24,016 bases of DNA, from the IMG/VR virus record IMGVR_UViG_3300028920_002949, positions 1-24,016 of that record; one strand, written 5' to 3'. Shown piece after piece: positions 14,362-20,937 of the stretch. The notes beneath the pieces are model-generated. The model did no database searches, was not told where the DNA came from, and saw only the letters and a list, made by a program, of their open reading frames with translations. The stretch's first letter is position 1. Each line of letters opens with the position of its first letter. Position numbers and translations under genes: made by a program. Source of the stretch: a virus.

Positions 14362-15482
14362 CAGGCCGCGCCCCCCAGCTCGGCGGCTTCGCGCGCGGCG
14401 ATGTCGCGCAGCGCCCTGCCCCGCAACCCCACCGGCAGCCGGCCGGCGAGCTTGCGCAGGCGGCGGTACTTCCAGGCGGCGCGATCGCGCTCGCGCTTCG
14501 CGAGCCGTTCGGCCCGGCAGGCCCGGGCCACCGCCTGCGCCGGCCGGAACGCCCCGCGCAGGAGGCGCTTGGCGGCGTTGTGGTCGCCGAGCGTGCTCTC
14601 GCCCCCGGTGGCCACCCCCCACCGGAAAAACCCGTCCGGGTTCCGGCAGTCCCGCCAGCGCGCCGCCTTGCCCAGCCAGGAGAGCACGCAGGCCTCGTCG
14701 CGCCCCTCGTGCAGGGCCTCGGCCACCAGGTGCGGCGAGACGCCCGCCGCGGCAGTCGCCCCGGCCAGGTGGGGAGCGAGCGACCGGCCGGTGAGATCGG
14801 GCGCGGGTGATTCGGTACACACGCGCGCGCGCGCGCTTTTCCCGGTTAAGACGGCCTCCAGAGAGCAACCCCCCGTGGGGTTAGTTCTGGTTCCAGTTCC
14901 AGTTCTAGTTCCAGTTCTTAGCACCAATGTGCTGCAGGTTGGTGCAGGTTGGTGCAGATTGGTGCGGCCTGCAGCAGAGAGCTCGGTGCCGGAGGCGCAC
15001 TGAGAATCGGCCGCGCCGCCGGAAGACGAGTCGCCCGTGTCGCTTGCGTCCGGAAGTGGCGCGCCATCACCACCCCCGTCAGGTGTCAGCCGGGCCTCGC
15101 GCAGCGCCGCGGAGTACTCCTCTGCCGGGGCGCTCTCCAGGAGCCGCAGTCGCTCGCCCAGGAGCCTGGTCAAGGCCTCCTCGAAGATGCGGCAGGGCAC
15201 CCGGGTCATGTCCGCGAGGTCCTGGGCGTCCAGCGGTTCGCCGTGATCGTCCACCAGGTATCCGCGCAGCGAGCGATGCTCGACCGCGCTGGCCACGCGC
15301 AGGATCAGGTCCCAGGCCAGCACGTGCTCGTAGCCGTTGGGCTCGCCGCCGATCAGGCGCGCGTACTCCCGCGATGACAGGTTGTTGTTCACGGGCACCC
15401 ACTTGAGCCGCGCGTATCGGCGCGTGCCGCTGCTCTCGTAGAGGTCCTTCCAGTTGCGGATGCGGTAGACAGGCTTAGCCAT
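14361..15482 (-). CDS. Replication initiator-like protein (N-terminal phage replisome-organiser domain)
   Basis: ATG at 15482 follows GGAGG at 9 nt and starts MAKPVYRIRNWKDLYESSG. Residues 1-118 (RRYARLKWVPVNNNLSSREYARLI, HVLAWDLILRVAS, LDAQDLADMTRVPCRIFEEALTRLLGERLRLLES) match the winged-helix N-terminal domain of phage replication proteins that open with the RNWKD/KLKWVPVPN signature. Residues 120-230 are low-complexity (Gly/Ser/Asp, then Thr/Arg/Gly). The C-terminal part has a helical SPHLVAEALHEGRDEACVLSWLGKAARW...DGFFRWGV motif and a long basic helix region, likely for DNA or helicase contacts. In lambda, the O gene holds the origin; here tandem repeats lie at the same internal place. 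The domain call is moderately sure; mechanism is inference. Confidence 0.72.
   Translation of the reverse strand: MAKPVYRIRNWKDLYESSGTRRYARLKWVPVNNNLSSREYARLIGGEPNGYEHVLAWDLILRVASAVEHRSLRGYLVDDHGEPLDAQDLADMTRVPCRIFEEALTRLLGERLRLLESAPAEEYSAALREARLTPDGGGDGAPLPDASDTGDSSSGGAADSQCASGTELSAAGRTNLHQPAPTCSTLVLRTGTRTGTGTRTNPTGGCSLEAVLTGKSARARVCTESPAPDLTGRSLAPHLAGATAAAGVSPHLVAEALHEGRDEACVLSWLGKAARWRDCRNPDGFFRWGVATGGESTLGDHNAAKRLLRGAFRPAQAVARACRAERLAKRERDRAAWKYRRLRKLAGRLPVGLRGRALRDIAAREAAELGGAA
14883..14970. repeat. Tandem hexamers and decamers inside the initiator gene, candidate origin
   Basis: Plus-strand 14883-14918 holds six tandem hexamers of consensus AGTTCY (one starts with GG). Then 14931-14970 holds four degenerate decamers of the form GGTGCAGGTT. 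TTGGTGC (14939, 14949, 14959) recurs three times and is inverted at 14921-14927 (GCACCAA). These encode residues 171-200 (TNLHQPAP...TGTRTGTGTRT), a low-complexity stretch. Iterons inside an initiator gene are the lambda-type ori design; no clear AT-rich unwinding element is seen beside them. Confidence 0.6.
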
Positions 15483-16044
15483 GGTGGAGCACCTCCGGGA
15501 ATTCGTTGTGTTCGCGGCCGTCGAGCAGGCGACCGGCCTTCTTCTTGGTGACGCGGAGCATAGGGGCGGGGTCGCACTCGTCATCCGAGTGGAAGCAGCT
15601 GACGGTGCCATTCCGTCGGTCGACCATGAAGGCCGGGACCTTCTGCGCACGGCCCATGGTCGTATCGAACGCCTCTCCGTCTGCGGGAGGCCTCCACTCG
15701 CCCCATTGTTTGAAGAAGAAGTGCACACCGGCGGCGGCGCACTGGTCTCGCAGCGAGCGAACCCAACCCGGGTGCATGGGGTGGGCGCGACCACCGGACT
15801 CTCCGCCGGCGATGACCCAGTGCAAGAGGTTCGGTCTGCGGCTGGTCGTTCCCTGAGGACCATGCCCGCCGCGGTTCGCGACGTTCAACCAGGCCTGCAG
15901 GTCGACCTCCCCCAGCAGAGGCTCGGCGCTGATACCCCTGCACGCCGCCGGCACGGCCAGCAGTTCCGGGATCCGCTTGTCGGCAGCCTCCTGGTGCTCG
16001 ATGCGCGACAGCTCCAACTCCTCAACGTTGACACGGTCCTTCAC
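15475..16044 (-). CDS. N-terminally truncated DUF5131 (Gp37/Gp68-type) protein, possibly a pseudogene
   Basis: The likely GTG at 16044 (VKDRVNVEELELSRIEHQ) has GGAGGAAG upstream but at a long distance. From EHQEAADKRIPELLAVPAACRGISAEPLLGEVDLQAWLN onward the 189 residues follow the C-terminal half of DUF5131 proteins: HWVIAGGESGGRAHPMHPGWVRSLRDQCAAAGVHFFFKQWGEW. Full members begin with a Cys-rich WNPW-GC...GC--CYAE segment thought to bind a cluster, which is absent here, and the 490 bp upstream show no sign of it in any frame. The remaining part is intact and its stop overlaps the initiator start by 8 bp, so it is still translated or was recently truncated. It may be a decaying gene kept for coupling. 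Confidence 0.62.
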   Translation of the reverse strand: MKDRVNVEELELSRIEHQEAADKRIPELLAVPAACRGISAEPLLGEVDLQAWLNVANRGGHGPQGTTSRRPNLLHWVIAGGESGGRAHPMHPGWVRSLRDQCAAAGVHFFFKQWGEWRPPADGEAFDTTMGRAQKVPAFMVDRRNGTVSCFHSDDECDPAPMLRVTKKKAGRLLDGREHNEFPEVLHHG

Positions 16045-16532
16045 GGCACAGCGTCGCTTCCTCCGATGTCGTCTTGGCTCAAGGGATTCGCGGAACTGAC
16101 CGATACCACGGAAGTTTGCTCGCCCGGGGACGCGCTCAGCGCGTCGGTCGGTCAGTCCGATGTCGCCGGCCCCGGGGAGGCTGCCACCTCCCCGGCCCGG
16201 GTCTCCAAACGAAGTCACGTCACACCCAAAACCGGGTGCGCAATTTGAAAAAGTGCGTGAGCTGCCATACCGCGGGCGACCCCGCCCCCCCCGGAAGGAC
16301 CCGTAAACACGTGGGTTACAACAGAGGGCGAGCCTGCTACGTATCTGGGGGGCTTCCGGTCCACTGGGTCTCGCGATGGACCGACGGCGAGCGCCTCTCG
16401 ACTCCCACGCGGAGCGTGGCATCCTCAAGTAAGTCGGCACCCGCATCCACGCCACCGCGCACCGCAAGCACAGGAGAGGCGCGGGGGTGTTACGCAAGCG
16501 CTCCGGGGCGTGGATTCGTATCCTCAAGTCAC
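16045..16532. other. Gene-free interval with strong hairpins, possible control region
   Basis: No frame on either strand looks coding here; the open minus frame has a composition unlike its neighbours. I see a 9-bp stem (16172-16180 with 16187-16195, 6-nt loop), a 7-bp stem GACGCGC/GCGCGTC (around 16128-16144), CCACGC/GCGTGG near 16404-16418, GGTCCA/TGGACC near 16358-16382, an AT-rich spot at 16240-16250, and a 10-bp direct repeat ATCCTCAAGT at 16421 and 16520. Together they could hold a terminator and promoter for the replication genes, but no consensus -10/-35 is convincing. Confidence 0.45.
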
Positions 16533-17941: not shown

Positions 17942-19705
17942 TCACGCGCTCAAGAGCGCCCTGCAGAGCGCCTCAGCCATCTGCACCGGCACGCTGTTGC
18001 CGATCTGCTTCACCTGCTCGCCCTTGTTGCCGCAGAAGCGATAGTCGTCTGGGAAGCTGTGCGCCCGCGCCAGCTCGCGAACCGTCAGCATCCGAAACAG
18101 GATGTCCATCAGGCACCGCTGCCCACCAGCCTCGACGACCAGCGGGCGCACCAGGCCGAAACGGTCGTCGGTGGTGATGGTGTCCAGTGGCGCTTCGACA
18201 GGGCATGCACCGCCGGTGCGGTTGTACTTGATCACGAATGGCCGACAGATGCCCATGGCCCCTTCGGTGAGGATCGTGGCCAGCGGATCGCTCACGCTGC
18301 GCGCCACACCGCCGCCGCCTTGCGGCAGGATGAACGGCTCGCACACGGCGAAGCTGTTGCCGCCGGCCAGCACGGTCTGCAGAGGATCGCCTATCGACGT
18401 CGACCGTCTGCGGTAGTCGCCGTTGACGTCCCCGTGGGCGCACTGCACCACGAAGGGCGACACCAGGCACTGCTCGGCCTTGGTCACGAAGGTCGGCAGC
18501 GGGTCCTCGGCGCTCCGGACGCGCGCGCCGTTGCGTCCGGTCTGGCCGATCCCCATCACGAAGGGCTGCACGACCCCGCCGGCGCCGTGGCTGGTCACGC
18601 TGGGCGCAGGATCGTCGACGCTGTGAGTGCGCCCGCCCTGCCCCTTGCGCTCGCCGAAGAACGGCACCACGAACGGCCGCATCAGGCCGAAGTGGTTCGC
18701 GGTGGTCTGAGTCGGAAGCGGGTCTGCGAGAGGCCCGGCCTGCTTCTGGCTCGGCCAGTTGTTCAGCTTCACCATCAGCGGCCGGATCAGCCCGATGTGG
18801 CCACCACCCGCCGTGAGCGTCGGCAGCGGCTTGTCGAGGCGGATCGGCGAGCTCGCCACTTGGCCCTCGCGCGTTCCACGCAAGAGCACCAGGAAGGGCT
18901 CCGCCCACTCGCCGAAGTACTTCTCGATCCCCGCCTCGATGCGCTTCATGGTGTTGGGCTTCAGCGGCCGCTGGACCTTCACCTTGTACCGGCGCGTGTC
19001 CTCCTTGGTGAGGAAGATGCTGTGCCCGGGGATACTCCAATCGATGATCTCGCGCGCTGGCACCCACCTCTTGGCCTGGCCATAGAGATCCTGGCCTCCG
19101 CGCTTCACGTGCGTGACGTCAGGCCAGCCCAGCCGCTTGCGGCCCCTTGTGGCCAGCAGGAAGAAGCGCCTCCTGGTCGTCGGGTCGCCGTAGTTCGCCG
19201 CGGTCAGCGTCTTCCACTCCACGCGATAGTTCAGGCTCTCCATGGCGCGGATGAAGCTCTGGAACGTATCCCCCCGTCGGCTCTTGAGCGGTTTGCCCCG
19301 CGAGTCGAGCGGCCCCCATGTAGTGAACTCGGGCACGTTCTCGATGATCACGTTGCGGACGTAGAGTTCCTGGCACCAGTGGAGGATGTGCCAGGCGCTG
19401 GCTCGGCTCTGCTCGTCGCGAGGCTTGCCCCCGCGGGCGTTGCTGTGGTGCGTGCACTCTGGCGAGGCCAGCAGCAGGTCCAGCTTGCGGCTCGGCACCG
19501 CCTTGCTGGGCTTGAGCTCGTCGATCCCCGTGCAGAAGTGCTCGGCCCAAGGGTGATTGGCGGCGTGCGTCTCGATGGCACGCTCCCAGTGGTTGACCGC
19601 CGCCACTTCCACCTTGAAGCCCATTCCCGCCGCAGCCTGCAGCAGCCCGGTCGTAGTACCCCCAGCCCCGCAGAACAGATCAGCCGCCCTGATGACCTTG
19701 CCCAT
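17942..19705 (-). CDS. C5-cytosine DNA methyltransferase with internal repeats
   Basis: ATG at 19705 overlaps the adenine methyltransferase stop (TGATG) behind GAGGAGG. The 587-residue protein has motif I DLFCGAGG (9-16), the catalytic loop SPEC (81-84, Cys84), ENV (122-124), TTRRRFFL (176-183, motif VIII), FRMLTVRELARAHSFP (motif IX) and GNSVP (569-573, motif X). It transfers a methyl group from S-adenosylmethionine to C5 of cytosine in a recognition site set by the variable region between motifs VIII and IX. There, residues 291-527 consist of about seven copies of a PLPTxTT...G(L/I)xxPFxV unit. Such units occur in phage C5 enzymes, but seven is many. Probable role: protecting phage DNA from host restriction. 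Confidence 0.92.
   Translation of the reverse strand: MGKVIRAADLFCGAGGTTTGLLQAAAGMGFKVEVAAVNHWERAIETHAANHPWAEHFCTGIDELKPSKAVPSRKLDLLLASPECTHHSNARGGKPRDEQSRASAWHILHWCQELYVRNVIIENVPEFTTWGPLDSRGKPLKSRRGDTFQSFIRAMESLNYRVEWKTLTAANYGDPTTRRRFFLLATRGRKRLGWPDVTHVKRGGQDLYGQAKRWVPAREIIDWSIPGHSIFLTKEDTRRYKVKVQRPLKPNTMKRIEAGIEKYFGEWAEPFLVLLRGTREGQVASSPIRLDKPLPTLTAGGGHIGLIRPLMVKLNNWPSQKQAGPLADPLPTQTTANHFGLMRPFVVPFFGERKGQGGRTHSVDDPAPSVTSHGAGGVVQPFVMGIGQTGRNGARVRSAEDPLPTFVTKAEQCLVSPFVVQCAHGDVNGDYRRRSTSIGDPLQTVLAGGNSFAVCEPFILPQGGGGVARSVSDPLATILTEGAMGICRPFVIKYNRTGGACPVEAPLDTITTDDRFGLVRPLVVEAGGQRCLMDILFRMLTVRELARAHSFPDDYRFCGNKGEQVKQIGNSVPVQMAEALCRALLSA
18125..18835 (-). repeat. Seven-fold PLPT/RPFVV peptide repeat in the cytosine methyltransferase
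   Basis: Copies begin near residues 293 (PLPTLTAGGGHIGLIRPLMV), 329 (PLPTQTTANHFGLMRPFVV), 366 (PAPSVTSHGAGGVVQPFVM), 402 (PLPTFVTKAEQCLVSPFVV), 441 (PLQTVLAGGNSFAVCEPFIL), 474 (PLATILTEGAMGICRPFVI) and 506 (PLDTITTDDRFGLVRPLVV), with a period of about 33-39 residues. They are diverged at DNA level, so the repeat is old or under selection for the motif. Confidence 0.85.
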
Positions 19706-20937
19706 CACGCCTCCTCAAACAGCCGCGCCTGGCCCTCTTCAGGCCGCAGGCAATGCGGGCTGAACCAGATCCGCTCTCGGTGAGAATTCCGGTTCTTCCT
19801 GTTGCGGGCGCCGTATCCCCCCCCTGCCTTCCACGGCACCACCTGCCAGCCGCGCGCCTCGAGCTCATCGTGCTCGCCCTCGTAGCCACAGAGGGCTATC
19901 CGCACTTTGGGCTCGTCTTCGTTGTCAATGCACCACGCGCGCACGTCGCTGGCGATGTCCCGGCTGTCGTGGTTGTAGACGACATCCCGACCGGCATCGC
20001 CGTATGGCGGGTCAAGGAACACGGCCGTGACTCCGATGTGGATCGTCGGGCTTGGCCCCAGGACGCGCATCCAGTCGCCGCAGCACACCCGCACTCGCCG
20101 GAGCCTGTGGGCCAGCGCGCAGAAATACTCCACGATGGCCTCGCAATAGCCGGCGTGAATGCCCCGACCCGAGCATCCATGATGACCGGAGACATCGGGC
20201 AACTTGCGGTGGGTGCCGGCCACGTACTTCGCGTGGACGCCCCGACCGCTCGCGCCATCGTTCCCGCTGATGTCGGGCATCTGGCGGTTGACGCCCCGCC
20301 CTCCTTTGCGAATGTCCGGCCGCTTTCTGTGCACGCCCATGTTCCCGCGCGTCAGATTCGGCCGGGCACGCCACTTTCCGTTCTTGCCCTGTGACCTCCC
20401 CGCGTGAACGCCCGCACCGCCCTGCTTGAGCAGCGGCCTCTTGCCGTTGGCGATGGCCTGCACTCCCTTCTCTCGGTGCAGATGCGGACGCGCCGACTGG
20501 GGACCTACCCGGCACCAGCAATCACCAATCCATGCCGAGATGCCCCAAACCCACCAGCCGGCGACCTTGGCGTCGTAGTAGTCGGGGTCGCTGTGCATGC
20601 GCTCGCGGAAGCCGGCCTGGTCGTGCAGCCATTGGTGCCGGGCGTGCAGGTCCGCCTCGTTTACAGGCCAGTCCGCGCAGCGGGCAACCTCCTCAGGGGC
20701 ATGCAGAGACGCCCGCCAGAAGTTGGCCAGGTAGCAGTCCAAGTCGTTGACCGTCTCGTTCTTCGCCGGCCAGATCTCCGGCCGTGCCAAAAGCACAGCC
20801 AGGCTGCCCGCGAAGGGCTCGACGTAGTTGGGCACGTTGCCGAACCGTGGCCAGACGATGTGCGCGCAGCGCCGCTTGCCCCCAAACCAGGGGAACGGCG
20901 CTTTGAGGCCGCTCATCCGCTCGGCCACTACGACCAC
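19705..20937 (-). CDS. D12-class N6-adenine DNA methyltransferase with repeat insert
   Basis: GTG at 20937 has GAGGAG upstream (an ATG at 20916 is the alternative). The 410 residues show the D12 class arrangement: APFPWFGGKRR (13-23, SAM-binding entry), VEPFAGSLAVLL (39-50, FxGxG-like motif I), the WGISAW segment and VFLDPPYG (307-313, catalytic DPPY). The C-terminal strand-helix units (RIALCGYEGEHDELEARGWQVVPWK) follow. It methylates adenine at N6 in a short target. Between the two halves, residues 157-262 are a glycine/histidine/arginine-rich repeat insert (GVHRKRPDI, GVNRQMPDIS, GTHRKLPDVS), a region that varies among phage D12 enzymes. With the coupled cytosine enzyme it probably blocks host restriction. 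Confidence 0.9.
   Translation of the reverse strand: MVVVAERMSGLKAPFPWFGGKRRCAHIVWPRFGNVPNYVEPFAGSLAVLLARPEIWPAKNETVNDLDCYLANFWRASLHAPEEVARCADWPVNEADLHARHQWLHDQAGFRERMHSDPDYYDAKVAGWWVWGISAWIGDCWCRVGPQSARPHLHREKGVQAIANGKRPLLKQGGAGVHAGRSQGKNGKWRARPNLTRGNMGVHRKRPDIRKGGRGVNRQMPDISGNDGASGRGVHAKYVAGTHRKLPDVSGHHGCSGRGIHAGYCEAIVEYFCALAHRLRRVRVCCGDWMRVLGPSPTIHIGVTAVFLDPPYGDAGRDVVYNHDSRDIASDVRAWCIDNEDEPKVRIALCGYEGEHDELEARGWQVVPWKAGGGYGARNRKNRNSHRERIWFSPHCLRPEEGQARLFEEA
20152..20469 (-). repeat. GVHR-x-x-PDI repeat insert in the adenine methyltransferase
   Basis: Residues 157-262 contain about five degenerate units built on G-(V/T)-(H/N)-R-(K/Q)-x-P-D-(I/V) followed by a Gly-rich turn, such as VNRQMPDISGNDGASGRGVH and THRKLPDVSGHHGCSGRGIH. 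The two best copies are about 25 residues apart. This sits where D12 enzymes recognise their target. Related repeats occur in other phage adenine methylases. Confidence 0.75.

Follow-up and report, generated by a model that had tools for sequence, protein, structure and literature searches.

In bacteriophage lambda, gene O contains dyad iterons midway along its length; dimers of the O protein bind them, and the tract beside them opens (PMC5043065, PMC7466680). O binds its AT-rich region in single-stranded form as well (PMC7466680). Spacing between the iterons of lambda ori is ~20-24 bp, and beyond them lies a tract that is rich in purines and opens easily (PMC5043065, PMC7466680). In lambda ori, and in the O origins of Stx phages, the repeats occupy the central part of the initiator gene, with the codons of the N-terminal binding domain on one side and those of the C-terminal partner domain on the other. 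SPP1 oriL (gene 38) is another case of a replisome-organizer gene that holds its own repeats together with an opening element (PMC6316719).

We analysed a 24,016-nucleotide stretch of viral DNA (IMG/VR record IMGVR_UViG_3300028920_002949, positions 1 to 24,016; hereafter the window) that contains a locus of similar layout, with repeats in the linker coding sequence of an initiator-like gene, phased dyad iterons and adjacent easily opened DNA. The initial annotation had placed a candidate replication origin inside this gene, and our results support that placement. We consider it probable, judging from sequence, that the linker of the phage's own initiator gene contains a lambda-type origin in which the dyads are bound by the encoded initiator and an RGAA array is the opening or helicase-loading element. 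According to this model, dimers of an N-terminal winged-helix domain would bind GCA-N6-TGC dyads, the resulting nucleoprotein complex would strain the DNA and open the adjoining weakly paired, strand-asymmetric RGAACY array, and the exposed strand would receive the helicase via the C-terminal domain or a host loader. These steps, and origin activity as such, are inferences.

The locus also departs from these precedents. Its proposed opening tract, and that of its family, is a tandem RGAA array with a 5-6-nt unit rather than an AT-rich stretch, the dyads of the window are packed every 10-13 bp, and most relatives (although not the window) carry dyads inside the codons of the binding domain. When a 30-sequence profile was compared with lambda O using hhalign, the probability was 1.8% over only 30 columns. 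As the protein is not a relative of lambda O by sequence, the locus would work like lambda ori without membership of the O family. The repeats differ from those of SPP1 oriL as well, and SPP1 has a second origin elsewhere, whereas a single array of at least five units was found here in five of six long contigs.

An initiator-like gene with a disordered linker

The initiator-like gene is intact and extends from 15482 to 14361 on the minus strand (stop codon 14361-14363), encoding a protein of 373 amino acids (MAKPVYRIRNW...) that is 81% identical to its counterpart in the relative L001. One continuous frame runs from 15482 to 14361, across the repeats, which ruled out a frameshift reading of this gene. 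A DUF5131 gene (15475-16527) lies immediately upstream.

A structure model of the protein was built with AF2 from 30 relatives. The N-terminal domain (residues 1-132; 15087-15482, minus strand), which we propose to be the dyad-binding part, is conserved in the family and winged-helix-like, with pLDDT mostly >90. It is separated from a helical C-terminal domain (residues 225-373; 14364-14810, minus strand), proposed from the AF2 model to contact a partner or helicase loader, by a linker that is predicted to be disordered (residues 152-224; 14811-15029, minus strand; pLDDT about 36-53) and holds all of the repeats. Residues 36-123 align with winged-helix proteins at Z about 3.5-4.4 (VIA-align). 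Because this alignment is weak (Z about 4), we treat the fold name as a lead and not as a result; a Foldseek search with the model found nothing in the PDB at E 0.001. Queried alone, the window protein had no replication-family match in PHROG or Pfam at E 0.001, and a PDB search returned nothing. Its assignment as a putative replication initiator comes through its relatives, which match replication-initiation, primosomal, DnaD-like and O-like PHROGs, including the C-termini of replication proteins. Most relatives and the window protein fall short of the Phage_rep_org_N (PF09681) replisome organisers, and their C-termini are diverse; 5 of 30 family members matched PF09681 (best E 1.5e-4) and the window protein did not.

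Two adjacent repeat classes in the window

The six hexamers that had been described as AGTTCY are real and occupy 14883-14918. On the plus strand they read AGTTCT, GGTTCC, AGTTCC, AGTTCT, AGTTCC and AGTTCT, such that the minus strand, on which we place the proposed strand-opening or helicase-loading array, consists of RGAACY units. The sequence RGAACNRGAACNRGAAC had four matches in the window, all within this array, compared with 0.00 in 100 dinucleotide shuffles. Of all 40-bp segments in the 24-kb window, this one has the lowest stability. In relatives, the least stable segment of the gene often lies elsewhere.

Next to the hexamers, 10-bp direct repeats of TGCAGGTTGG (14933-14965, plus strand; 3.3 copies, TRF score 59) contain dyads. 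Lag-10 periodicity of the window gene was significant (p=0.003) in comparison with synonymous shuffles, and the doubled decamer had three matches in the window versus 0.02 expected by shuffling. Of the four decamers reported initially, three are good copies (14933-14962) and one is a degenerate copy at the edge; the segment is better described as four GCA-N6-TGC dyads on the minus strand, each a proposed initiator iteron. These are dyad 1 (GCACCAATCTGC, 14954-14965), dyads 2 and 3 (both GCACCAACCTGC, 14944-14955 and 14934-14945) and dyad 4 (GCACATTGGTGC, 14921-14932). TTGGTGC does occur three times (14939, 14949 and 14959), and its single inverted copy (GCACCAA, 14921) belongs to dyad 4. The dyads overlap and are 10-13 bp apart across 14921-14965. 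It is this clustering that is unusual, as the single GCA-N6-TGC motif is not enriched across the window (18 observed, 13.2 expected).

A small hairpin, AACCCC-CCGT-GGGGTT, adjoins the hexamers at 14867-14882, and an alternating CG tract is present at 14822-14836. A CG tract beside the array was also found in L001, L007, L009, L011, L019 and L059. Hairpins of the C4..G4 type were present in 7 of the 44 family genes (the window, L001, L015, L017, L019, L051 and L052), compared with 1.5% of random segments, and several of them read CCCCC..CCCCC..GGGGG just behind the array. L139, which belongs to another protein family, has a C-rich/G-rich hairpin behind its array too.

Dyads and RGAAN arrays in the family of relatives

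The family set consists of 44 distinct genes including that of the window, and was gathered by searches from L001 outward; one false relative (L083) was dropped from it. Nearly all members come from uncultured viruses, with L040/L041 apparently from an isolate genome. Comparison of family members with our collection of cultured phages, plasmids and genome contigs identified no relatives there.

The initial annotation regarded two repeat lengths side by side as unusual; in this family they are the rule. Most of the 43 relatives carry the same two-part array behind the N-terminal domain, in which dyads, usually CCGCA-N6-TGCGG at exactly 21 bp, are followed by tandem RGAAN pentamers. Thus, relatives that share the domain do carry repeats in this part of the gene. 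The hexamer form is common only to the window and one close relative, L001, which retains the dyads, RGAACN hexamers, small C4..G4 hairpin and CG tract with a changed peptide; gene-wide lag-6 periodicity in L001 was not significant (p=0.15).

Repeats among relatives were evaluated against synonymous shuffles, which preserve each protein and its codon usage. Lag-5 periodicity was significant (p<0.05) in 35 of 44 genes, with the qualification that the per-gene p values are uncorrected and the relatives are not independent. Lags 4, 6, 7 and 8 were significant in 3-9 genes and lag 11 in 12 genes; lag 10 is a harmonic. Linkers of all family genes contained 71 dyads compared with 11.4 expected, mostly spaced at 21 bp, or about two helical turns. 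Unexpectedly, the codons of the N-terminal DNA-binding domain contained 62 dyads versus 12.9 expected, while the C-terminal part had 1 versus 2.0 expected. Dyads within the first ~310 nt, spaced at 21-22 bp, were found in L011, L015, L017, L034, L051, L055, L059 and L074, and in the first five of these genes short insertions in the N-terminal domain are made of dyad sequence. The excess of dyads and of lag-5 periodicity shows constraint among relatives at the DNA level beyond the peptide. By the periodicity statistic, RGAAN arrays were weak or absent in L023, L049 (which has a different pentamer), L056, L060 and L067. L056, a relative of the initiator, has neither array, and its domain seems to be followed by an additional segment that contains Cys and His.

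A scan that used DNA alone (a dyad followed by RGAAN units) identified seven contigs, all seven of which encode this initiator-like family; five had not been found by protein, and L025 and L028 are the two that had been found before. Five of the six long contigs contained exactly one array with five or more RGAA units, each time within an initiator gene, whereas the sixth had none. Two paralogous initiator genes, both with an RGAA array of their own, are present in the 47849-nt contig G002 (~33.1 kb and ~38.1 kb). The contigs of L057 and L081 stop within the array, as though the repeats broke assembly.

Codon choice and reading frame point to selection on DNA

In the peptide encoded by the hexamers, RTGTRTGTGTRT, every Arg codon is AGA and every Gly codon is GGA, codons that are rare in the phage of the window. 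The probability of this choice is ~1e-8 given the codon usage of the phage's other genes and ~1e-10 given that of its own gene; the same test applied to the array of L001 yielded a probability of ~1e-7. The window dyads, at intervals of 10-13 bp, fall in all three reading frames, and the RGAAN arrays of relatives cycle through all frames. The array is clearly inverted in L009 and L059, and because of this inversion their peptides are quite different. These sequence comparisons indicate that selection in the repeat region is on DNA and not on the peptide, in agreement with the earlier suggestion that the peptide follows from the DNA repeats. Coding sequence in this family would thus be shaped for a DNA function in all frames. 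We also considered a phase-variable tandem-repeat locus and rejected it, since the units are not perfect copies, the length of the window array is divisible by three and relatives keep their frames open through the array.

RGAACN arrays in unrelated phage initiators

A scan for five RGAACN units returned more than 119 viral stretches, 80 of which were examined. Among 79 ORFs covering an array, at least 23 (a raw count) encode replication-type proteins in which we detected no relationship to the window family: a 16-member cluster (phrog_1701/12196 and others), a 4-member DUF1376 cluster, L118, L119 and L126. The hexamer alone is not diagnostic, as many other matches were low-complexity stretches in structural or unknown proteins. 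Replication proteins of the MRDYGKV/YRKIDVR type (phrog_12196 and phrog_1701; Acinetobacter and Escherichia phages) and DUF1376 proteins resemble the window gene in having RGAACN hexamers in mid-gene; their iterons differ, e.g. CTTCGAAG. In unrelated initiators the array is often preceded by different, family-specific repeats, and it encodes QEQEQE, NQNQNQ, TGTGTG or EPEPEP, with PVPVPV on the opposite strand. Cultured carriers include Acinetobacter phage YMC/09/02/B1251, Klebsiella phage ST974-OXA48phi18.2 and Escherichia phages PhiR5_2 and CharmingMan. The array gene of the Escherichia and Klebsiella representatives has repressor-type genes (cI, cro, cII or the like) on one side and, on the other, a gene for a DnaC-like protein or a primase/helicase.

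Dyad sequences differ between clades, whereas RGAAN/RGAACN recurs. As the dyads vary with the initiator and the RGAA motif does not, two roles can be separated. The suggestion that the repeats are binding sites of the initiator holds in part: the dyads are likely initiator sites, but for the hexamers this is improbable, as different iterons accompany one and the same RGAA motif in unrelated initiator families. We tentatively raise the possibility, which we rate at somewhat below even, that tandem RGAAN/RGAACN is a general, unnamed origin element of tailed phages. It would act in strand opening or helicase loading, be read by a conserved host factor and stay constant while iterons and initiators are swapped, forcing TGTGTG, QEQEQE, NQNQNQ or PVPVPV into unrelated initiators. 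We searched the open-access literature and did not find the RGAA array described there, a result that does not prove novelty. The DnaA-trio/DnaD recognition element (TnnT, PMC10201434) was considered and gave no clear fit, as TTCT units occur on the complementary strand in some copies only.

Alternative explanations

Hexamers and decamers might both be initiator sites, as two classes of iteron recognized by different DNA-binding surfaces, with no separate opening element. The two arrays do adjoin each other inside the initiator gene, and the contact of lambda O with its single-stranded AT-rich region (PMC7466680) means that the same protein could contact both arrays. A phage-specific protein that reads both as duplex sites would not be expected to leave the RGAA motif nearly constant next to iterons that differ by clade and family, and we consider this explanation unlikely. 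The dyads might instead form an operator or partition-like site for autoregulation or segregation, the product being a regulator and not an initiator. The N-terminal domain resembles winged-helix regulators and phased dyad arrays are typical of operators too. This explanation appears improbable, as the dyads are intragenic rather than at a promoter, the relatives match replication initiation, primosomal and DnaD-like families, and arrays of the same kind in unrelated families adjoin helicase loader or primase/helicase genes.

Explanations that assign the repeats no function as DNA fare worse. Replication slippage could have expanded a flexible low-complexity linker; the linker is predicted to be disordered, and EP/GT/S low-complexity repeats with the same hexamer are found in unrelated structural proteins. 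We regard this as highly improbable given the rare codons of the array, the period of 5 in all frames, the wholly different peptides encoded by inverted arrays, the dyad excess within the conserved DNA-binding domain under the synonymous null and the single array per genome in five of six long contigs. It is extremely improbable that the purine-rich array acts in RNA, such as by binding ribosomes internally for translation of a separate C-terminal product. The GGAAG/GGGAA units in the arrays of relatives are Shine-Dalgarno-like, but the RGAACY form of the window is a poor match, and the inverted arrays of L009 and L059 would be pyrimidine-rich in RNA. We favour the lambda-type arrangement, with the dyads as iterons and the RGAA array as the opening or loading element.

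GC skew and genomic context

The initial annotation suggested an inflection of GC skew as a sign of the origin. The window shows no sign change at 14.9 kb, and only one of the six long contigs has a skew extreme, its minimum, near an initiator. GC skew lends the origin no support; for mosaic phages such a test has little power.

An initiator linker with dyads followed by an RGAA array provides a sequence rule for origins in unculturable phages. The data suggest one opening element shared across unrelated phage initiators, an idea that cultured PhiR5_2 (recorded host MG1655) and CharmingMan make directly testable. In the window, genes for a cytosine-C5 methyltransferase and a D12-class adenine methyltransferase (17942-19708 and 19705-20937) are located near the replication gene.
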